10,764 bases of DNA from Clostridiales bacterium (lineage in GTDB: Bacteria; Bacillota; Clostridia; Christensenellales; Aristaeellaceae): positions 1-10,764 of the forward strand of contig JAAZAQ010000322.1 in the NCBI GenBank assembly GCA_012514225.1, written 5' to 3'. The notes beneath the pieces are model-generated. The model did no database searches and was not told the DNA's origin. It saw only the letters and a list, made by a program, of their open reading frames with translations. The translations under genes were made by a program, and so were the position numbers. Of the stretch, positions 2,400-10,764 are shown piece after piece (position 1 is the first letter of the stretch; the number at the start of each line of letters is the position of its first letter).

Positions 2400-4187
2400 T
2401 CAGCCCCCCATGAGCCGGCGCAGCCCGTCCGAAAACGGCGGCCGGATGACGCCGCGCTCCGTCACAATCGCGCTGACGAGGGAATGCTCCGTCACGTCGA
2501 AGGCGGGGTTGTACACACGGACGCCCTCGGGCGCCATCCGTTCCCGGTACCACATCCGGGTCACCTCGTCCTGCGCCCGCTGCTCGATGGGGATTTCGCC
2601 GCCGCTGGCCAGGCTCATGTCGATGGTGGACGTCGGGGCGCAGACAATCATCGGAAGGCGGTAGTGCCTGGCCAGGATGGCCACGCCGGAGGTGCCGATC
2701 TTGTTGCAGCAGTCGCCGTTCGCGGCGATGCGGTCGGCGCCGGTGACCACGGCCTGGACCCAGCCGTTCTTCATCACCTGGGATGCCATGTTGTCGCACA
2801 CCAGCGTGACGTCCACCCCGGCCGCCTGCAGCTCGAAGGCGGTCAGCCGCGCGCCCTGCAGCAAGGGGCGCGTCTCGTCCGCGTAGACTTTGAACGAACG
2901 TCCCCGTTCCAGCCCCACGTAGACCGGCGCCAACGCCGTCCCGTACCGGACCGTGGCCAGCCGGCCTGCGTTGCAGTGGGTCAGGATGGCGCCGACGCCT
3001 GCCAGCGCGGTCAGCCCGTGCTCGCCGATGGCCCGGCAGGCGGCGACGTCCTCATCAATCATTGTTTGCGCCTCCGCAAGCAGGCGCACCCGGATTTCGG
3101 GCAGGGGGAGCGCCTCGCCTCTGCGCGCGACGGCCATCATCCGCTCGATGGCCCAGAACAGGTTGACGGCGGTCGGCCGCGCGGAGGCCAGCGCGTCGGC
3201 CGCGGCTTTCAGCTTCCGATAGAAGGGCGCGTAATCCGTTTCCCGTGTGTTCACAGCCGCCAGGTATACCCCGCAGGCGGCCGCCACGCCGATGGCCGGG
3301 GCGCCGCGCACCTGGAGCGTGCGGATGGCCTCCCGGATTTCTTCCGTGGCCGTCAGCTTGAGCATCTCCAGCCGGTTGGGCAGCTGCGTCTGGTCGATGA
3401 TGACCAGGGCGCGGTTTTCCGCGTCCAGCGCGACGGTGTCGGGGAAGGTCCGGCCGCTGTCCGGGTCAGCCATCGGCGCCTCCTTCCGGGCGCCCGGCGC
3501 CTCTTCAGCCAAAGGTATTCCGCCCAGCCGGATGCCCAGTTTCTCCCGGATGGCCAGCAGCTCCTTCAGCTGCCCGGCGCCGAGCGCCTGCGCGCCCACA
3601 GGCCCCAGGCCCAGGTGGGTGAGAATCAAGGCCAGGTGCTCCATCGCCTCCAGCCGGTAATAGGCCTCCGTCAGCGTACGCCCCCAGGCGACCGGCCCGT
3701 GGTTGCCCAACAGCGCGGCGTTGTACTTCGAATAACAGGGGGCGATGCCCTCGGCCACCGCCGGCGTTCCGGGGGTCTGGTAGGGCAGGCAGGGCACTTC
3801 ACCCAGAAAGACCACGGCTTCCGGGTACAGGGTTTGCGTCAGCCCCTTCCCGGCGATGGCGAAGGCGGTGGACAGCGGCGGGTGGGCGTGGACGACCCCG
3901 CCGATGTCCGGGTTTTCCCGGTAGGCGCGCAGGTGCATCTGGATTTCGCTGGAGGGGCTGAGGGCGCCCTGCCGCAGCACGCTGCCCTCCCGGGTCAGCA
4001 GCACCAGGTCCTCCTCCCGCATGAACCCCTTGGACACGCCCGAGGGCGTCGCCCAGACGTTCCCCTCCCGGGTCAGGCAGGTGATGTTGCCGTCGTTGGC
4101 GGCGACGTAGTTGCGCTGGTACATCCGTCGCCCGATGTCCAGTATCAGTTCCCTGGCTTCCCGGTTTCCCGGCAGGCTCGAGCCCAT
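2400..4187 (-). CDS. mtnA: Fused class II aldolase / methylthioribose-1-phosphate isomerase (MtnA)
   Basis: Cytoplasmic two-domain enzyme of 595 residues. Residues 1-225 are a class II (L-fuculose-phosphate type) aldolase. The zinc ligands E81, H100, H102 (VVHAHPP) and H163 (GNHGPVAWG) have the spacing of FucA E73/H92/H94/H155, all shifted by eight. Residues 239-595 are MtnA: RGAPAIGV at 294-301, the catalytic-type cysteine C405 (THCNAG) and D485 (TGADRIAANGD), 80 residues apart as in Bacillus MtnA, then NKIGT. Known chemistry: MtnA isomerises 5-methylthioribose-1-P (or 5-deoxyribose-1-P) to the ribulose-1-P. A class II aldolase then yields dihydroxyacetone phosphate plus methylthioacetaldehyde or acetaldehyde (DHAP shunt). 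Inferred: the fusion catalyses both consecutive steps. Start chosen at 4187 (GGGAGG, six bases upstream) rather than the in-frame ATG at 4238, which would lie within the promoter transcript start region. The kinase or phosphorylase for the pathway is not in the window. Confidence 0.93.
   Translation of the reverse strand: MGSSLPGNREARELILDIGRRMYQRNYVAANDGNITCLTREGNVWATPSGVSKGFMREEDLVLLTREGSVLRQGALSPSSEIQMHLRAYRENPDIGGVVHAHPPLSTAFAIAGKGLTQTLYPEAVVFLGEVPCLPYQTPGTPAVAEGIAPCYSKYNAALLGNHGPVAWGRTLTEAYYRLEAMEHLALILTHLGLGPVGAQALGAGQLKELLAIREKLGIRLGGIPLAEEAPGARKEAPMADPDSGRTFPDTVALDAENRALVIIDQTQLPNRLEMLKLTATEEIREAIRTLQVRGAPAIGVAAACGVYLAAVNTRETDYAPFYRKLKAAADALASARPTAVNLFWAIERMMAVARRGEALPLPEIRVRLLAEAQTMIDEDVAACRAIGEHGLTALAGVGAILTHCNAGRLATVRYGTALAPVYVGLERGRSFKVYADETRPLLQGARLTAFELQAAGVDVTLVCDNMASQVMKNGWVQAVVTGADRIAANGDCCNKIGTSGVAILARHYRLPMIVCAPTSTIDMSLASGGEIPIEQRAQDEVTRMWYRERMAPEGVRVYNPAFDVTEHSLVSAIVTERGVIRPPFSDGLRRLMGG
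3471..3485 (-). promoter_or_regulatory. Internal ribosome binding site and start codon at the MtnA domain junction
   Basis: Within the fusion gene, the minus strand reads AAGGAGG-CGCCG-ATG: a near-perfect Shine-Dalgarno (3479-3485) five bases before an in-frame ATG (3471-3473, residue M239). Starting here gives a 357-residue protein, the normal length of stand-alone MtnA. It may allow separate synthesis of the isomerase, or be a relic of two formerly separate genes. Confidence 0.6.
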
Positions 4188-4240
4188 TTTTGTCCTCCCT
4201 GTTCGTCCCCTCGGCGGGTATTTCGGGATTTCCGCCATCG

Positions 4241-4269
4241 ATTATAGCGCAAGCCCTGTCCGGCCGCAA
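4241..4269 (-). promoter_or_regulatory. Sigma-A promoter for the aldolase-MtnA gene
   Basis: On the minus strand, a perfect -10 box TATAAT (4241-4246) has a weak -35 box TTGCGG (4264-4269) at 17-bp spacing. Transcription would begin near 4234, giving a leader of about 46 nt before the start codon at 4187. It is back to back with the promoter of the TIR gene. Confidence 0.65.
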
Positions 4270-4299
4270 AACCGCGGCCTGCAAGCCGGGCTCGCCGCA

Positions 4300-4308
4300 T
4301 GGTATAAT
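4300..4308 (+). promoter_or_regulatory. Extended -10 promoter for the TIR-Crp/Fnr gene pair
   Basis: TGGTATAAT: a perfect TATAAT (4303-4308) with a TGn extension, start expected near 4315. The -35 region is poor (CTGCAA at 4279-4284, 18-bp spacing). Divergent from the aldolase-MtnA promoter, with the two -10 boxes about 56 bp apart. Confidence 0.65.
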
Positions 4309-4350
4309 CGGCCGAGAACCGCCGGGGTTTCCGGCTGCCGGAGGTGCGGC

Positions 4351-4860
4351 ATGAAGCAAAAGGTCCGCCTGTTCATCTCCTATGCGCAAAGGGCGTCCGG
4401 TGCGGCGGAGTCCTTCTGCGCGGCGTTCGAGGAATACTGCGCCTGCTCCAGGAGCTACGATTACGCGTTCTGGCGGGACGTCGACCTGCTGCCGGGGGAG
4501 AAGTGGGAAGCGGTAATCATGGATCAGCTTTCGCGCTGCGACGGCGGCCTCCTGCTCATCAGCCCGTCCTTCCTCAACTCCGCCTATATTTCCCGCGTCG
4601 AGATGCCAGCCCTCATGCGCCCGGACAAGGTGCTCATCCCGGTCGGCCTGCTGAAAATCAACCTGGAGCGTCACGACCTGCGCGGCCTGAAGGAACGGCA
4701 GATTTACAGCCTGAAGCCCAAAGGCGGCGGCGAGGCCCGCTATTGGGACCAGCTGGGCAAAAGGGCGCGTGCGGACTTTATCGACGGCCTGTTCACGGCG
4801 CTGGAAAAGCGCCTGGACAAACGGCGCGCCATGGAGCCGGCTAATCATGATGAAGCCTGA
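4351..4860 (+). CDS. Small stand-alone TIR-domain protein
   Basis: 169 residues, essentially one TIR domain with a short helical tail. Seen: box-1-like RLFISYAQ (residues 6-13), box-2-like WRDVDLLPGEKW (41-52), the core strand GGLLLISPSF (65-74), and then SAYISRVE ending in E84. E84 occupies the position of the catalytic glutamate of NAD-cleaving TIR enzymes. The tail (133-160) contains the aromatic DFIDGLFTALEKRL helix seen in many bacterial TIR proteins. There is no signal peptide or membrane segment, so it is cytoplasmic. Bacterial TIR domains are known NADases or makers of cyclic ADP-ribose signals, often in anti-phage systems such as Thoeris, but no Thoeris effector gene (ThsA) is present here. 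Start chosen at 4351 with GGAGGT five bases upstream. The 3' end overlaps the next gene by 14 nt, implying translational coupling with the regulator. TIR fold confident; NADase activity inferred from E84; biological role unknown. Confidence 0.85.
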   Translation: MKQKVRLFISYAQRASGAAESFCAAFEEYCACSRSYDYAFWRDVDLLPGEKWEAVIMDQLSRCDGGLLLISPSFLNSAYISRVEMPALMRPDKVLIPVGLLKINLERHDLRGLKERQIYSLKPKGGGEARYWDQLGKRARADFIDGLFTALEKRLDKRRAMEPANHDEA

Positions 4861-5705: not shown

Positions 5706-6896
5706 ATGCGCAAGAAGATCAAGAACAACGTGGACTGGGTCGGCAAAATCGATTGGGAGCTGCGGGAGTTCCACGGCTCGGATTTCTCCGTGAACCGGGG
5801 CTCCAGCCAGAACGCCTATTTAATCCGGGAGGAGAAGACTGTGCTGGTGGACACCGTGTGGGCGCCCCACGCCCGCGAGTTCATCGACAACCTCAAGCAG
5901 GAAATCGACCTGAAGGACATCGACTACATCGTCACCAACCACGGCGAAATCGACCATTCCGGCGCGCTTCCGCTGCTGATGGCGGAAATCCCGGGCACCC
6001 CCATCTATTGCACCGCCAACGCGGTCAAATCCCTGGTGGGCCAGTACCACCACCCGGAGTGGAATTTCAAGACCGTGAAGACGGGGGACACGCTGGACCT
6101 GGGCAATGGCAAGCAGCTGATTTTCGTGGAGATGCGCATGCTCCACTGGCCGGACAGCATGGCCGCCTACATGACGGGGGACAACATCCTCTTTTCCAAC
6201 GACGCCTTCGGCCAGCACTACGCGGTGGAGGAGCTGTTCAACGACTGCTGCGACCCCTGCGAATTGTGGTACGAGGCGATGAAGTACTATGCCAATATCC
6301 TGAACCCCTTCTCGCCGCTGGTCACCAAGAAAATTGAGGAAGTGGTCGCCCTCAACCTGCCCATCGACATCATCGCGACCAGCCACGGTGTCATCTGGCG
6401 GGACAATCCCCTGCAGATTGTCCAGAAATACGCGCAGTGGGCGGACGCCTACCAGGAGGACCAGGTCACCATCGTCTACGACACCATGTGGGACAGCACC
6501 CGCGTCATCGCCCATGAAATCGCGGGGTACATCAACAAGTTTTCGCCGGACACCAAGGTCAGGGTCTATAACCTCTCCAACACCGACAAGAACGACATCA
6601 TGACGGAGGTCTTCCGCTCCAGGGCCATCGCGGTGGGCTCGCCCACGGTGACCAACAGCATCCTGAGCTCCGTTTCGGGCTGGCTTGCCTTCCTCAAGGA
6701 ACTGAAGTTCAAGAACAAGAAGGCGGCGGTGTTCGGCTCCTATGGCTGGTCCGGCGAGGGCAACAAGGAACTGCGCGCCAGGCTGGCGGAGGCCGGGTTC
6801 GAGGTCGTGGAGCCGGAGGTCAGGGCAAACTGGAAGCCGACCCGGGAGGAATTGCTGCCCTCCGAGGCGGTCGCCCGGGCGCTGGCCCAGGGCTGA
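5706..6896 (+). CDS. fprA: Flavodiiron protein (NO/O2 reductase), FprA/NorV type
   Basis: 396-residue cytoplasmic flavodiiron protein that reduces O2 to water and/or NO to N2O using electrons from rubredoxin or a similar donor. The N-terminal metallo-beta-lactamase-like domain has the full diiron ligand set H79, E81, D83, H84 (NHGEIDHSG), H147 (MLHWPDS), D166 (SNDAFGQH) and H227 (ATSHGVIW). The numbering equals my recollection of E. coli NorV, and long stretches such as IYCTANA and GDTLDLGNGKQLIFVE match NorV closely. From about residue 253 a flavodoxin domain follows (VTIVYDTMWDSTR, GSPTVTN, FGSYGWSGEGN) that binds FMN. The C-terminal rubredoxin domain of NorV is absent, so a separate rubredoxin is needed. 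Start supported by AGGAGG eight bases upstream. It lies just after the Crp/Fnr regulator and behind a promoter with a matching palindrome, suggesting control by that regulator. Start, family and active site certain; preference for NO or O2 cannot be read from the sequence. Confidence 0.96.
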   Translation: MRKKIKNNVDWVGKIDWELREFHGSDFSVNRGSSQNAYLIREEKTVLVDTVWAPHAREFIDNLKQEIDLKDIDYIVTNHGEIDHSGALPLLMAEIPGTPIYCTANAVKSLVGQYHHPEWNFKTVKTGDTLDLGNGKQLIFVEMRMLHWPDSMAAYMTGDNILFSNDAFGQHYAVEELFNDCCDPCELWYEAMKYYANILNPFSPLVTKKIEEVVALNLPIDIIATSHGVIWRDNPLQIVQKYAQWADAYQEDQVTIVYDTMWDSTRVIAHEIAGYINKFSPDTKVRVYNLSNTDKNDIMTEVFRSRAIAVGSPTVTNSILSSVSGWLAFLKELKFKNKKAAVFGSYGWSGEGNKELRARLAEAGFEVVEPEVRANWKPTREELLPSEAVARALAQG

Positions 6897-6933: not shown

Positions 6934-6965
6934 AGGCAGCCGGGAGATTCGCTCCCGGCTGCCTC
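6934..6965. repeat. Left terminator-like stem-loop, direct repeat copy A
   Basis: A perfect 12-bp stem (GGCAGCCGGGAG, loop ATTCG, CTCCCGGCTGCC; 6935-6963) within a 32-bp segment repeated exactly at 7146-7177, flanking the 180-bp element. On the minus strand the stem is followed by TTTG, so this copy could terminate the leftward aldo-keto reductase transcript. Confidence 0.85.
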
Positions 6966-7145
6966 AGACTGTCGAAAAAGGTCTGCGGACCTTTTTCGAT
7001 TCGGAGGATTGCTGCGGAATGTTTTCGCTGTTCGCGAAAACGCCGCGCGCGTCCGGCAGAGCCGGACGACCGATTGTAATCGGTGGGCTGCTGCCCCCCG
7101 ATGCCCCCTGCATCATAGTCTGTAGTATGGTTCTTTGACACCCTG
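6966..7145. mobile_element. 180-bp non-coding terminator-flanked element, copy 1
   Basis: Recurs at 10341-10521 with roughly 88% identity by eye; the first 66 positions differ at two sites. Imperfect terminal inverted repeats: the left end reads CAGACTGTC (its first C shared with the duplication) and the right end, reverse-complemented, CAGGGTGTC. Internal stem-loops in order: 12 bp TCGAAAAAGGTC-TGCG (6972-6999), GTTTTCGC-TGTTC-GCGAAAAC (7021-7041), GTCCGGC-AGA-GCCGGAC (7051-7067), ACCGAT-TGTA-ATCGGT (7069-7084), GGGC-TGCT-GCCC (7085-7096), GATGC-CCCCT-GCATC (7100-7114). CAGACT (6965-6970) can also pair with AGTCTG (7117-7122). No credible protein. Probably a MITE-like or structured intergenic repeat. 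It sits between convergent fprA and the aldo-keto reductase gene. Confidence 0.75.
6972..6999. terminator. Bidirectional terminator-like hairpin inside element copy 1
   Basis: TCGAAAAAGGTC-TGCG-GACCTTTTTCGA: the stem begins with A5 and ends with T5, so either strand gives a hairpin with a U tract in the lower stem. This could stop transcripts from fprA (rightward) and from the aldo-keto reductase gene (leftward). The same hairpin is unchanged in copy 2 (10347-10374). Confidence 0.5.
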
Positions 7146-7177
7146 AGGCAGCCGGGAGATTCGCTCCCGGCTGCCTC
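7146..7177. repeat. Right terminator-like stem-loop, direct repeat copy A'
   Basis: Exact 32-bp repeat of 6934-6965, carrying the same 12-bp stem-loop (7147-7175). It lies 14 bp beyond the stop codon of the aldo-keto reductase (minus strand). Because the segment is itself palindromic, the two copies are both direct and near-inverted repeats of one another. Confidence 0.85.
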
Positions 7178-7191
7178 GTCGTCTGCCTGCG

Positions 7192-8031
7192 CTACATCGC
7201 GTAAATCCGCTTGATGTTGTTCGGGTCCGTGTGTGGCATCCCGGCTGGCTTTCCGGTGTCCAGCAGCGCGATGGCCGCCATATCGCTCGCGCTGAGCCGG
7301 AAGTCGAAGATCTGGAAATTTTCCCGGATGCGCGCCTTGTGCGTGGACTTGGGCAGCGCGCAGACGCCCCGCTGGGTCAGCCAGCGCAGGCAGACCTGGG
7401 CGGTCGTCTTGCCGTGCTTCTCGCCGATGGCCTTGAGCACCGGGTTTTCCAGCAGGTCGGTCTTCCCCTGGGAGAAGGGACCCCAGGCCTGGTGCGCCGT
7501 GCCGTACTCCGCGAGGGTTGGCTCCATCTCCCGGCGCTGGTGGTAGGGATGGGTCTCCAGCTGATCGACGTGCGGCCGGATTTCGTTGTTCAGCGCCAGG
7601 TCGGTCACCCGGTCGGCGTAAAAGTTCGACACCCCGATGGCCCTTGCGCGCCCGTCTCTAAAAAACCGCTGCGCGGCGCGCCAGGCGCCGTACACGTCCC
7701 CGAAGGGGTGGTGCAGCAGGTACAGGTCGACGTAGTCCATCCCCAGCCGCTCGAGCGACCGTCCGAAGGCGGGCGCCGCTTTCTCCTCCGACATGTCGGA
7801 AATCCACAGCTTGGTGGTGACGAACAGTTCCCCCCGCGGGACGCCGCTGTGCCGGATGGCTCGGCCGACCGCCTCCTCGTTCCCGTAAAACTGCGCGGTG
7901 TCGATGAGCCGGTATCCGGCTTCCAGCGCGTCGCCGACCGCGCGCTCGCAGACCGCCAGGTCCTTGATCAGGTAGGTGCCAAAGCCCAGCAGGGGCATGC
8001 TGGCGCCGGTCGCCAAGCGGATGAATTCCAT
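7192..8031 (-). CDS. Aldo-keto reductase
   Basis: 279-residue cytoplasmic NAD(P)H-dependent reductase with the (beta/alpha)8 aldo-keto reductase fold. The catalytic tetrad is D44 and Y49 (LIDTAQFYGNE), K74 (VTTKLW) and H107 (YLLHHPFGD). The family signature GFGTYLI is near the N-terminus and the C-terminal cofactor region is present (LRWLTQRGVCALPKST, residues K and S-T-H-KARIREN). Length is normal for the bacterial AKR5-like group (about 270-285). Start at 8031 chosen because GGGAGG lies six bases upstream; an in-frame ATG at 8127 would overlap the upstream regulator. It follows the HxlR regulator gene by 19 nt and is surely co-transcribed. Substrate unknown; HxlR-controlled reductases commonly act on reactive aldehydes or quinones. 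Downstream lies the duplicated stem-loop with the 180-bp element. Confidence 0.93.
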   Translation of the reverse strand: MEFIRLATGASMPLLGFGTYLIKDLAVCERAVGDALEAGYRLIDTAQFYGNEEAVGRAIRHSGVPRGELFVTTKLWISDMSEEKAAPAFGRSLERLGMDYVDLYLLHHPFGDVYGAWRAAQRFFRDGRARAIGVSNFYADRVTDLALNNEIRPHVDQLETHPYHQRREMEPTLAEYGTAHQAWGPFSQGKTDLLENPVLKAIGEKHGKTTAQVCLRWLTQRGVCALPKSTHKARIRENFQIFDFRLSASDMAAIALLDTGKPAGMPHTDPNNIKRIYAM

Positions 8032-8050
8032 AAGTTGCCTCCCGGTCGCG

Positions 8051-8401
8051 TTATGAGGTCTCCATCTCCCCGTGCTTGCGGGAGATGGCCAGGATATGCC
8101 GCAGGGTGTGGGTGATTTCCCCGCCAAAGTCCGTCAGCAGGTACTCGCTGCGGCGGGCGTCTTCCGCGGGGTTGTTCTTGGACACCAGCCGGGAGAGGGT
8201 CAGCGCGCCCAGCTTGCGCTGCAGCTCCGTATCGCTGATGTCGCTCACGCTGGCCCGGATGTCGGAATACCGGGTGGCGCCCTGCTCAATCGCAAAGAGA
8301 ATCATCGGGTTCCAGCGGCCGCCGATGATGGATTCCATCAGCCGCAGGCCGGAGTCCAGGTTCACGCTTCCGAAATTGTCAAACCGGTCATACTCGCTCA
8401 T
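8051..8401 (-). CDS. HxlR-family winged-helix regulator
   Basis: 116 residues, the usual HxlR/MarR-like size. Seen: GLRLMESIIGGRWNPMILFAI (the helix with the family's GG-[KR]-W hallmark), RYSDIRASVSDISDTELQRKLGAL (helix-turn-helix with the IS-x-x-x-L recognition helix), and the wing and tail SRRSEYLLTDFGGEI-like segment (ARRSEYLLTDFG). Many HxlR regulators have a cysteine near the N-terminus that senses electrophiles or hypochlorite; here the equivalent region (SVNLDSGL) has none, and the whole protein has no cysteine. So a ligand other than a thiol-reactive one, or a different mechanism, is likely. Start at 8401 has GGGGAGG six bases upstream. First gene of a two-gene operon with the aldo-keto reductase, transcribed away from katA. 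An inverted repeat over its own -10 box suggests autoregulation. Confidence 0.9.
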   Translation of the reverse strand: MSEYDRFDNFGSVNLDSGLRLMESIIGGRWNPMILFAIEQGATRYSDIRASVSDISDTELQRKLGALTLSRLVSKNNPAEDARRSEYLLTDFGGEITHTLRHILAISRKHGEMETS

Positions 8402-8442
8402 GCGCGTCCTCCCCGCTGCTGTCGTATCTCTGTGCTCCGCTT

Positions 8443-8461
8443 CCATTCTAACAAGGAATGG
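8443..8461. promoter_or_regulatory. Candidate HxlR operator over the -10 box
   Basis: CCATTC-TAACAAG-GAATGG: perfect 6-bp arms around a 7-bp centre, covering the -10 box (8445-8450) of the HxlR gene. Position and symmetry fit a repressor site for a dimeric winged-helix protein. It also lies about 40-60 bp upstream of the katA promoter. Confidence 0.5.
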
Positions 8462-8473
8462 GGGGATGGACAA
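8445..8473 (-). promoter_or_regulatory. Sigma-A promoter of the HxlR-aldo-keto reductase operon
   Basis: Minus strand -35 TTGTCC (8468-8473) and -10 TAGAAT (8445-8450), spacing 17 bp, with a TGn extension before the -10. About 43 bp upstream of the HxlR start codon. Confidence 0.65.
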
Positions 8474-8500
8474 GGAAAGGAAAGCCAACAGATTTGTTCG

Positions 8501-8530
8501 TTGACCGGCTACAACCGCATCCGGTAGGGT
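8501..8530 (+). promoter_or_regulatory. Possible katA promoter
   Basis: A good -35 box TTGACC (8501-8506) has only a poor -10 (TAGGGT, 8525-8530, 18-bp spacing). An inverted repeat ACCGG-N12-CCGGT (8504-8508 and 8521-8525) spans the spacer. The weak -10 suggests an activated promoter or an alternative sigma factor. No PerR-like TTATAAT palindrome is visible. Confidence 0.35.
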
Positions 8531-8553
8531 AAGGTGACAAGAGGCACAGCGAC

Positions 8554-8569
8554 GCCGGCGGCCGCCGGC
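8554..8569 (+). promoter_or_regulatory. GC palindrome in the katA leader
   Basis: GCCGGCGGCCGCCGGC, a perfect 16-bp palindrome that can form a GCCGGC-GGCC-GCCGGC hairpin in the mRNA, 20 bp before the katA start codon and ten bases before its AGGAGG site. Possible mRNA-stabilising or translation-modulating stem. It is not followed by a T run. Confidence 0.4.
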
Positions 8570-8589
8570 ATGAAGAAAAGGAGGAAGAA

Positions 8590-10278
8590 ATGAAAGACCC
8601 GACCCGGAAAAACGGCTTGGGCGAGCACGCCCTCAGCCGCAACGACGTCATCGGGGCGGAGCCCCGCATCACGACCGCCGCCGGCGCGCCGGTGGAAAAC
8701 AACCAGGACAGCATGGGGGCGGGCGCCCGGGGACCCCTGGCCCTGCAGGACGTCTGGCTGCTGGAAAAGCACGCCCACTTCAACCGCGAGCTCATCCCCG
8801 AGCGGCGCATGCACGCCAAGGGCTCCGGCGCCTTCGGCACCTTTACCGTCACCCATGACGTCACGCGGTACACCAAGGCGAAAATCTTCTCGGAAATCGG
8901 CAAGAAGACCGAGATGTTCGCCCGCTTTTCCACCGTCGCGGGGGAACGGGGCGCCGCGGACGCGGAGCGCGATATCCGCGGGTTCGCGCTGAAGTTCTAT
9001 ACGGAAGACGGCAACTGGGACATGGTGGGCAACAACACCCCGGTGTTCTTCTTCCGGGACCCCCTCAAGTTCATCGACCTCAACCACGCCGTCAAGCGCG
9101 ACCCCCACACCAACCTGCGCTCCCCCAACAACAACTGGGACTTCTGGTCCTCCCTGCCCGAGGCGCTGCTGCAGGTGACCATCGTGATGTCCGACCGCGG
9201 CATCCCCAGCTCCTACCGCCACATGCACGGCTTTTCCAGCCATGCCTATTCGCTCATCAACGCGCAGGGCGAGCGCTTCTGGGTCAAGTTCCACTTCCGT
9301 TCCCAGCAGGGCATCCAGAACTACACCGACCAGGAAGCTGAAATGGTCGCCGGGAAAGACCGGGAAAGCCACCAGCGCGACCTGCTGGAAGCCATCCGCC
9401 AGGGCCGTTTCCCGAAATGGAGGATGTATATCCAGGTCATGACCCGGGAGCAGGCCGACGCGATGGAGAACAACCCCTTCGACCTGACCAAGATGTGGCT
9501 GAAGAAGGATTATCCGCTGATTCCCGTCGGCGAGTTCGAGCTCAACCGCAACCCGGACAACTACTTCGCCGACGTCGAGCAGTCCGCCTTCGCGCCCAGC
9601 AACGTGGTGCCCGGCATCAGCTTCTCGCCCGACCGGATGCTGCAGGGCCGCCTGTTCGGCTACGGCGACGCGCAGCGCTACCGCCTGGGCATCAACCACC
9701 ACCAGATTCCGGTCAACCAGCCCCGCGGCGTCGCAAAGCCGCACGCCTTCCACCGCGACGGCCGGATGCGCGTGGACGGCAACCTGGGCGCCGAGAACCA
9801 CATCGAGCCCAATTCCTACGGCAACTGGACCGAGGCGCCGGACAACTACCAGCCCATGCAGCAGGGCGGCGACGTCTACCGCTACGACTTCCGCGCGGAC
9901 GACAGCGACTACTACACCCAGCCGGGCCTGCTCTTCCGCGCAATGACGGATGACCAGAAGCGCGTGCTGTGTGAAAACACCGCCCGCAACATGGGGGACA
10001 GCACCCTGCAGATCAAGCACCGGCACATCCACGCCTGCTACCAGGCGGACCCCGCCTACGGAGAAGGCGTCGCCCGCGCCCTGAACATCGACCTGAAGGA
10101 CGTGGACCTCAACCTGCCGGCACGCGATTCCCGGGAGAACAACTTCAAGGCCAACCACGCCCATCCGGAACTCAACGTGCCCGGTGAAGACCGTTCCAAG
10201 GCCGCGTGGGAAGAAATCAAGACGGACTACGATCCGAAATCCTTCGTCGAGCCGGAGGACGACCCCTACCTTCTCTGA
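8590..10278 (+). CDS. katA: Monofunctional heme catalase, small-subunit type
   Basis: 562-residue catalase (2 H2O2 to 2 H2O + O2), cytoplasmic. Seen: the distal active site [20 protein letters not shown] with catalytic H75; the second distal residue N148 in [10 protein letters not shown]; and the proximal heme ligand Y358 in [14 protein letters not shown], with R354 beside it. The NADPH/heme-fold segment [13 protein letters not shown] and the C-terminal helical region are intact. Length is that of small-subunit (clade 3-like) catalases with a C-terminal extension ([13 protein letters not shown]); there is no flavodoxin-like domain of the large-subunit type. AAGGAGG lies five bases upstream of the ATG. 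Codon use is GC-rich like its neighbours. It is a single-gene unit ending at a duplicated terminator stem-loop. Together with fprA it suggests that an otherwise anaerobic cell copes with oxygen exposure. Confidence 0.97.
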
Positions 10279-10317
10279 TTCTCCAGGCGCCCCGGCGGTA
10301 TTCGCCGCGCCTTTCCC

Positions 10318-10340
10318 CGCCGCCCCCTCCGGGGCGGCTC
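10318..10340. repeat. Left terminator-like stem-loop, direct repeat copy B
   Basis: GCCGCCCC-CTCC-GGGGCGGC (10319-10338), an 8-bp stem, 40 bp after the katA stop codon. The 23-bp segment recurs at 10522-10544 with one loop difference. It is unlike the stem-loop at the other locus. This copy is followed by TCAGACTG rather than a T run. Confidence 0.85.
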
Positions 10341-10521
10341 AGACTGTCGAAAAAGGTCTGCGGACCTTTTTCGATTCGGAAGATTGCTGCGGAATATTTT
10401 CGCTGTTCGCGAAAACGCCCCGCGCGTCCAGCAGAGCCGGACGACACGATGATTATCAGTGGGCTGTCGCCCCCCGAAGCCCCCTGCATCATGGTCTGTA
10501 GTAAGGTTTATTGACAAACTG
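10341..10521. mobile_element. 181-bp non-coding terminator-flanked element, copy 2
   Basis: Same orientation and nearly the same length as 6966-7145. Begins AGACTGTCG and ends GACAAACTG, so the terminal inverted repeats are CAGACTGTC and CAGTTTGTC. The 12-bp A5/T5 hairpin (10347-10374) is unchanged. Later stems are kept with substitutions: TTTTCGC/GCGAAAA, GTCCAGC/GCCGGAC, and CACGAT-GATT-ATC(A)GTG replacing ACCGAT/ATCGGT. No credible protein: frames through it differ between the copies. It lies just downstream of katA. Confidence 0.75.
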
Positions 10522-10522
10522 C

Positions 10523-10550
10523 GCCGCCCCATCCGGGGCGGCTCTTTCTT
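10523..10550 (+). terminator. Intrinsic terminator downstream of katA (repeat copy B')
   Basis: GCCGCCCC-ATCC-GGGGCGGC (10523-10542) followed by TCTTTCTT: a classic 8-bp GC stem with a U-rich tail. This is probably the original katA terminator, now separated from the gene by the 181-bp element and a duplicate of the stem. Confidence 0.8.
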
Positions 10551-10724: not shown

Positions 10725-10733
10725 CTAGGAGCG

Positions 10734-10760
10734 TTAGCACTCGACCAATGAGAGTGCTAA
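10734..10760 (+). promoter_or_regulatory. CIRCE operator (HrcA binding site)
   Basis: TTAGCACTC-N9-GAGTGCTAA, an exact match to the consensus, three bases after the predicted start. HrcA bound here represses chaperone operons (groES-groEL or hrcA-grpE-dnaK) until heat or misfolded protein titrates GroEL. The controlled gene lies beyond the right edge. Confidence 0.97.
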
Positions 10761-10764
10761 CAAT

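Follow-up and report, generated by a model that had tools for sequence, protein, structure and literature searches.

The DNA analysed here (the window) is a stretch of 10,764 nt from a Clostridiales bacterium (assembly GCA_012514225.1, contig JAAZAQ010000322.1, forward strand), and it contains two copies of a 180/181-bp element. The two copies are very probably miniature inverted-repeat transposable elements (MITEs) of an IS1182-family subgroup that targets hairpins, in which the target duplication is the target hairpin itself and the transposase would act in trans and read secondary structure. The insertions sit at stem-loops, which in the window lie just behind two genes. A complete copy of the stem-loop stands on each side of the element, and the length of the duplication follows that of the hairpin. 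Full-length IS1182 elements with similar ends likewise duplicate a hairpin, and thus the MITE and the full-length elements have the same target choice. An earlier note on this DNA had suggested that a small element, mobilised in trans, targets terminators and duplicates the entire hairpin, a proposal now supported by the flanks, the empty sites and the IS1182 partners. The stem-loops are probably intrinsic terminators, because they lie at gene ends and many copies are followed by a T-tract.

Paired hairpins around the element and single hairpins at empty sites

The source genome (1.93 Mb, 401 contigs, 89% complete) carried the element at 26 distinct places (L001–L026; 41 match rows), and most of the remaining match rows were self-matches of the internal palindrome at 6972–6999. 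Three copies (L024–L026) were partial and two (L012, L013) were cut by contig ends. Each left flank was compared by score with the right flank of its own copy and with those of all other copies. As the earlier note had predicted, the flanks were alike within a site and unlike between sites: the own pair scored highest in 17 of the 24 copies with both flanks, narrowly so in L009, L015, and L020. An eighteenth exact pair, of 22 nt, was found in L010, where another copy scored higher because the L010 hairpin also occurs in other flanks. No flank pair was found in the other six copies (L016, L018, L022, and the partial L024–L026). The repeated segment was the entire stem-loop, for example 20 nt in L006, 25 nt in L003, and 32 nt in L001.

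Several further observations were made on these copies. The hairpin AAAGAAGTGTCTGCGGACACTTCTTTGATTTGGGAG in the flanks of L010 and L020 is itself multicopy and occurs at many places in genomes G003 and G009 and in the source genome. In the partial copy L026 (1200–2000, reverse strand, contig C270 of the source genome), the right half of the element lies directly downstream of a candidate RNase P RNA gene. The element had no match among the phage and plasmid DNA searched. When six genomes were searched with the terminal inverted repeat pattern, allowing three mismatches, the counts among the matches listed were above those of a reversed-pattern control, with chance matches swamping the result.

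Empty sites were sought with the joined flanks of ten source-genome sites against the genus (11 genomes, the source genome included). Among the matches listed, congeneric loci with both neighbours conserved were found at no fewer than three of the ten sites (at least L002, L006, and L019). Three of the 13 orthologous loci fetched (L348, L350, L351) were judged by eye to have an intergenic stretch or a right flank without clean conservation and were excluded. In each of the ten clean empty loci, from three sites, a single stem-loop passed the threshold in the interval separating the two genes, compared with one hairpin on each side of the element at the filled sites. The expectation that element-free relatives would carry only one stem-loop was thus borne out at every clean locus.

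A cousin of the element is widespread in the same bacterial family. The cousin query, taken from the congener G007, had matches in at least 35 of 200 same-family genomes, including the source genome, and the cousin element or the conserved MITE core was found in at least 14 of 50 sampled genera; these counts are lower bounds, as about four candidates were scored per genome. Genome G050, from another genus (a 4.2-Mb assembly in three contigs), had 48 match rows for a 211-bp cousin. Thirty of its loci were fetched and 25 were analysed, with L128, L130, L132, L134, and L136 excluded as nested or partial. At 19 of the 25 sites, the cousin was flanked by a direct repeat with a score of at least 12; the shortest clear duplication was 16 nt (L109) and the longest 39 nt (L107, L108). 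In L128, L130, L132, and L136, a second small repeat (AGGACGCGAAGCGTC... or similar) lies inside the internal hairpins of the MITE and is perhaps another hairpin-seeking element.

IS1182 partners and the coupling of duplication to hairpin length

Full-length partners with similar ends are IS1182-family insertion sequences of ~1.5 kb, which encode one DDE transposase and have ends of type CAGNCTGTCRAAAAA; the ends of the source-genome MITE (CAGACTGTCGAAAAAGG / CAGGCTGTC) resemble them. The IS1182 transposase profile NF033551 had matches in 17 of the 40 genomes tested, four above the cut-off. Genome G192, from another genus, carries a MITE relative (L057) together with an intact insertion sequence (L186). 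The latter is 1.49 kb long, encodes an intact 479-aa transposase, and is flanked by two copies of AAACCACCCGTCAAACGGGTGGTTT; its ends (CAGCCTGTCAAAAAAGG / CAGCTTGTCAAAGAAG) resemble those of the source-genome MITE. Genome G155 has a 1.54-kb element between two copies of AGCCTTGCATTTTTGCAAGGCT, whose gene contains an in-frame stop and whose ends (CAGACCATCGGCAAAG / CAGACCATCTTCAAA) resemble those of the G050 MITE. Both L186 and L185 are autonomous IS1182 elements.

NF033551 was the best family match for all three partner transposases, with scores of 415 bits (L186), 420 bits (P0001, of L185), and 356 bits (L217) at a cut-off of 270. The L186 transposase contains the Pfam domains DUF772 and DDE_Tnp_1_6, and had no relatives in the PDB at E 0.01. 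An IS1634 origin was rejected, since the IS1634 profile matched only one of the three transposases, at 20.7 bits versus a cut-off of 100. DDE_Tnp_1 (PF01609) gave five rows in G001 and G003, of which the one checked was IS5-like. The four weak PF01609 rows in G050 proved to be IS1182 remnants with different ends (GGGGCCGTTGCAC) and were rejected as the partner of the MITE. These remnants (L176–L179, contig C3) lie behind another insertion-sequence gene. In L177 and L178, the left flank is A-rich, the right one is T-rich, and a hairpin pair is missing, which looks like replacement of the hairpin. The earlier note had suggested looking for full-length elements with similar ends; those found in the IS1182 family also have the same kind of flanks, and judging by these sequence features, movement in trans by a transposase outside the window is probable.

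We scanned named genomes with the G192 transposase and took the best 80 of the 187 stretches coding for relatives. By title, these 80 loci were mostly from draft genomes of Clostridia, and ten were in the complete genome of Chakrabartyella piscis. Usable flanks (at least 250 nt on the left and 150 nt on the right) were available for 61 loci, and 42 of them had a duplicated complete hairpin of 19–64 nt directly outside the ends. Mismatched left–right pairs mostly scored 11–17. Since L301 is a segmental copy of L236, the number of independent paired loci was 41. In L286 each copy of the repeat is a perfect palindrome of 64 nt. The two hairpin copies of L278 and of L284 differ only in the 2-nt loop, GA versus TC (the reverse complement), and one copy looks to have been flipped.

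The comparison of duplication length with hairpin length covered 76 sites at which a repeat had been scored: 16 of 21 in the source genome (the 26 places without those at contig ends and the partial copies), 19 of 25 in G050, and 41 IS1182 loci. The hairpin was the best one anchored within 3 nt of the right end of the element, leaving the left flank unused, and its 3' foot was compared with the end of the repeat. The two agreed within 2 nt at 66 of the 76 sites (14/16 in the source genome, 14/19 in G050, and 38/41 among the IS1182 loci), and permutation of the sites (10,000 trials) gave a mean agreement of 24% and a maximum of 42%. Duplication and hairpin lengths were correlated across the 76 sites (Spearman 0.89, Pearson 0.61). 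An unanchored hairpin search at the 35 MITE sites gave a median difference of 2 nt, with a Pearson coefficient of 0.71.

The two copies in the window and the structured core

Both copies of the element and both repeat pairs were found where the earlier note had placed them (Table 1). The copies, which it had described as about 88% alike, were 90% identical in a global alignment (163/181 columns). Their imperfect terminal inverted repeats were confirmed, with ends CAGACTGTC / GACAGCCTG. The hairpins of the two sites are unrelated to each other, in agreement with the claim that the stem-loops belong to the site and not to the element. At site 1, the left copy is a 31-nt hairpin anchored at the element end, and the C at 6965 is common to the left end of MITE copy 1 and the flanking repeat. 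The full-length IS1182 elements L185, L186, and L236, like the MITE copies, have a hairpin at the equivalent place of the left end.

Table 1 Features of the two insertion sites in the window.
Feature	Position	Strand	Remarks
Gene with metallo-beta-lactamase/flavodoxin domains	5706–6896		Site 1 lies downstream; domain search
Left copy of duplicated hairpin, site 1	6934–6965	+	Exact 32-bp direct repeat with 7146–7177
MITE copy 1	6966–7145	+	IS1182-type ends: left CAGACTGTCGAAAAAGG, right TTGACACCCTG
Subterminal hairpin, left end of MITE copy 1	6972–6999	+	TCGAAAAAGGTCTGCGGACCTTTTTCGA
Conserved structured core, MITE copy 1	7014–7108	+	GCGGAATG, hairpin, CGCC-CGC, CCGGCAGAGCCGG, CGATT, G-rich hairpin
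Right copy of duplicated hairpin, site 1	7146–7177	+	Direct repeat
Catalase gene	8590–10278		Site 2 lies downstream; catalase domain found
Left copy of duplicated hairpin, site 2	10318–10340	+	23-bp direct repeat, one mismatch (loop)
MITE copy 2	10341–10521	+	90% identity to copy 1
Subterminal hairpin, MITE copy 2	10347–10374	+	
Structured core, MITE copy 2	10389–10484	+	Aligned with copy 1
Right copy of duplicated hairpin, site 2	10522–10544	+	T-rich stretch then follows

The interior of the MITE consists of GGAATG, a hairpin, CCCCGC, a hairpin, GATACGATT, and a hairpin. This core is conserved across genera while the element ends change, and a motif search found no match to it in the loci of the full-length elements of G155, G192, and G168. 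At 8 of the 14 predicted pairs, at least one of 22 sequences from 17 genomes had both sides changed with the pairing kept, a count made without a shuffled control and from an alignment in which parts of hairpins 1 and 3 are visibly out of place. The core, the window, and six related loci had no Rfam match at the gathering threshold; a permissive scan of part of L002 gave Hrs13 as the best match, at 26.4 bits versus a threshold of 52, covering the terminator. The core with its covarying hairpins is present in both copies of the window and also in L031–L106, and as an uncharacterised structured element it is worth separate study.

Three other features of the window were recorded. A single 612-aa frame at 2400–4238 (reverse strand) contains a class II aldolase domain and an IF-2B-type domain, resembling a single-chain fusion of the methionine-salvage proteins MtnB and MtnA. 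An open frame at 4111–4860 (forward strand) adjoins a Crp-type regulator and may encode a TIR-domain protein. After site 2, at 10733–10761, lies GTTAGCACTC-N9-GAGTGCTAAC, which we take to be a CIRCE-like heat-shock operator.

Alternatives, known systems, and a proposed mechanism

Several points weigh against reading the element as an IS1182-type MITE that duplicates its target hairpin. The hairpins of the empty sites match in place but differ in sequence, and the intergenic stretches of these sites were bounded by hand. Neither NF033551 nor PF01609 had a match in the source assembly (89% complete), and NF033551 had none in the element-bearing congeners G002, G007, and G009, so that the mobiliser is deduced from the similarity of the ends; with no transposase of this kind in the assembly, an IS1182 DDE transposase would have to act in trans. 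Among the cousin loci, a clear duplication was seen at only ~8 of 47 (four of the 47 from G050), in a check covering ~190 nt to the left and ~170 nt to the right of the core, and most of those without one are divergent, with their ends unchecked. The 41 IS1182 sites used for the length comparison were selected for having a repeat, and the feet differed by more than 2 nt at 10 of the 76 sites (5/19 in G050). Recognition of secondary structure by the transposase (a cruciform or a folded single strand) rather than of sequence seems probable, but the evidence for cruciform extrusion and for transposition is indirect.

The survey of IS1182 loci contributes to the same side, as 19 of the 61 loci had no matched pair. 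Both ends were recognisable in 12 of the 19, and nine of these 12 abut a hairpin at each end, the two differing (L231, L247, L249, L255, L258, L265, L267, L271, L274). Such mixed pairs need recombination between copies or misassembly of the drafts, and L283 looks like a decayed pair. In favour of hairpin targeting, on the other hand, 27 of the 31 recognisable ends of unpaired loci abut a hairpin, compared with 10 of 116 control positions located 90–210 nt further out.

The best surviving alternative, which we nevertheless consider unlikely, is that the terminator hairpin is recognised in DNA that is single-stranded, at the replication fork, or through an RNA intermediate, rather than as a double-strand cruciform. 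Single strands readily form terminator hairpins, such hairpins are targets of group IIC introns, and the present data fit cruciform and single-strand recognition alike. However, for the target to be fully duplicated and both ends joined, both strands must be broken at symmetric feet, as follows directly from a cruciform. The partner encodes a DDE transposase and is bounded by terminal inverted repeats.

A further alternative, a long staggered cut of the ordinary kind that varies in length, merely prefers terminators and matches the hairpin feet as a by-product of the insertion place, is highly improbable. Long target duplications of variable length are also reported for IS1549 and IS1634, where they span 8–514 bp, in passages that give neither a link to hairpins nor a model for them (PMC2266710). 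IS1549 and IS1634 belong to another transposase family. A cut independent of structure would not track hairpin length site by site, as the duplications do up to 64 nt (Spearman 0.89; 66/76 within 2 nt). The suggestion in the earlier note that the hairpins are fast-diverging, co-evolving outer arms of the element draws on their being palindromic, paired around it and, with the ends, similar to extra inverted repeats, but it is barely credible given that the hairpins are unrelated in sequence between most sites and vary from 16 to 64 nt, that element-free orthologous loci hold one hairpin at that place, and that at nine unpaired loci each end adjoins a different hairpin.

Three other candidates were set aside. 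Casposon- or CRISPR-like integration was dropped once the IS1182 partners were found, and no search for it was made. A group IIC intron derivative was rejected for want of an intron ribozyme, as neither the window nor any of six related loci matched Rfam at the gathering threshold; reverse transcriptase was not searched for. Stem-loop replacement of the IS1272 type would delete the hairpin without duplication, but here a hairpin stands on both sides.

Group IIC introns insert at intrinsic terminators, after the hairpin; their targets are thus like those found here, but their insertion is RNA-mediated and is not known to duplicate the hairpin. REP/REPIN sequences are small palindromic intergenic repeats moved in trans by RAYT transposases, and their hairpins belong to the element, whereas here the hairpins belong to the site. 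Reviews of insertion sequences give very variable duplication lengths for IS1182.

The closest known systems are IS1272 and TnSha1, which share the transposase family and the stem-loop targeting of the partners of the window element. Stem-loop replacement by IS1272 was described by Wan et al. 2017 (PMC5678879), and hairpin and terminator targeting with deletion by Furi et al. 2016 (PMC4923244). According to the available portions of both papers, the target stem-loops, several of which are terminators, show no sequence preference (PMC5678879, PMC4923244), and the target structures in model A of Wan et al. are 21–85 bp (PMC5678879). As far as these portions go, IS1272 removes the hairpin wholly or partly, with no target duplication, whereas the window-type element keeps and doubles it. 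Duplication of the whole stem-loop is drawn in Fig 13 of Wan et al. (pathway b) as a possible branch, with no example in the excerpted text (PMC5678879). In excerpts from other papers, IS1182-type enzymes are reported in 2025 to act with or without target duplication (PMC12056078), a genome survey counts IS1182 as one of ten families overrepresented between convergent genes (PMC9208149), and ISPse1 of this family is listed with what appears to be a 4-bp repeat (PMC3281130). The earlier note knew of no element that duplicates hairpins. This stands for the duplication, of which no report was found among the matches listed in the open-licence literature searched, partly as excerpts, but not for the targeting, as stem-loop targeting by IS1182 (IS1272) is published (PMC5678879, PMC4923244). 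On the texts available, hairpin targeting by the IS1182 family is therefore already published, and duplication of the whole target hairpin appears to be new here. Curators of insertion sequences may already be aware of it.

The reading that we prefer, a hairpin-targeting IS1182-type MITE, suggests the following mechanism. The transposase would recognise a cruciform or hairpin at the target, and both element ends would be joined at the two 5' feet, one per arm of the extruded cruciform. Gap filling or repair would then copy the hairpin, leaving one on each side. Staggered joining of two 3' ends gives a target repeat on both sides with the element between, and a stagger equal to the hairpin whatever its length would place the joins at the hairpin feet. 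The left end of the element has its own hairpin with a T-tract; because this hairpin is present and one hairpin remains on each side, termination is probably kept and the insertion is probably near neutral.

Most DDE transposases produce target duplications of near-fixed length, because their two cuts lie a set distance apart on B-DNA. For the element studied here, the duplication length appears to be set by the shape of the target and not by a fixed ruler. It is possible, although we lean slightly against so broad a claim, that a DDE subgroup reads DNA shape and has no fixed stagger, cutting an extruded cruciform at its two 5' feet so that the duplication equals the hairpin (16 nt to at least 64 nt), and that one MITE lineage also delivers a conserved, structured, RNA-like core to the ends of genes across the whole bacterial family. 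If the cut distance follows the secondary structure of the target, dozens of natural insertions document hairpin recognition, and the branch proposed in the IS1272 model becomes directly testable. It also suggests why such elements can pile up at gene ends, where the terminator would be doubled and not broken.

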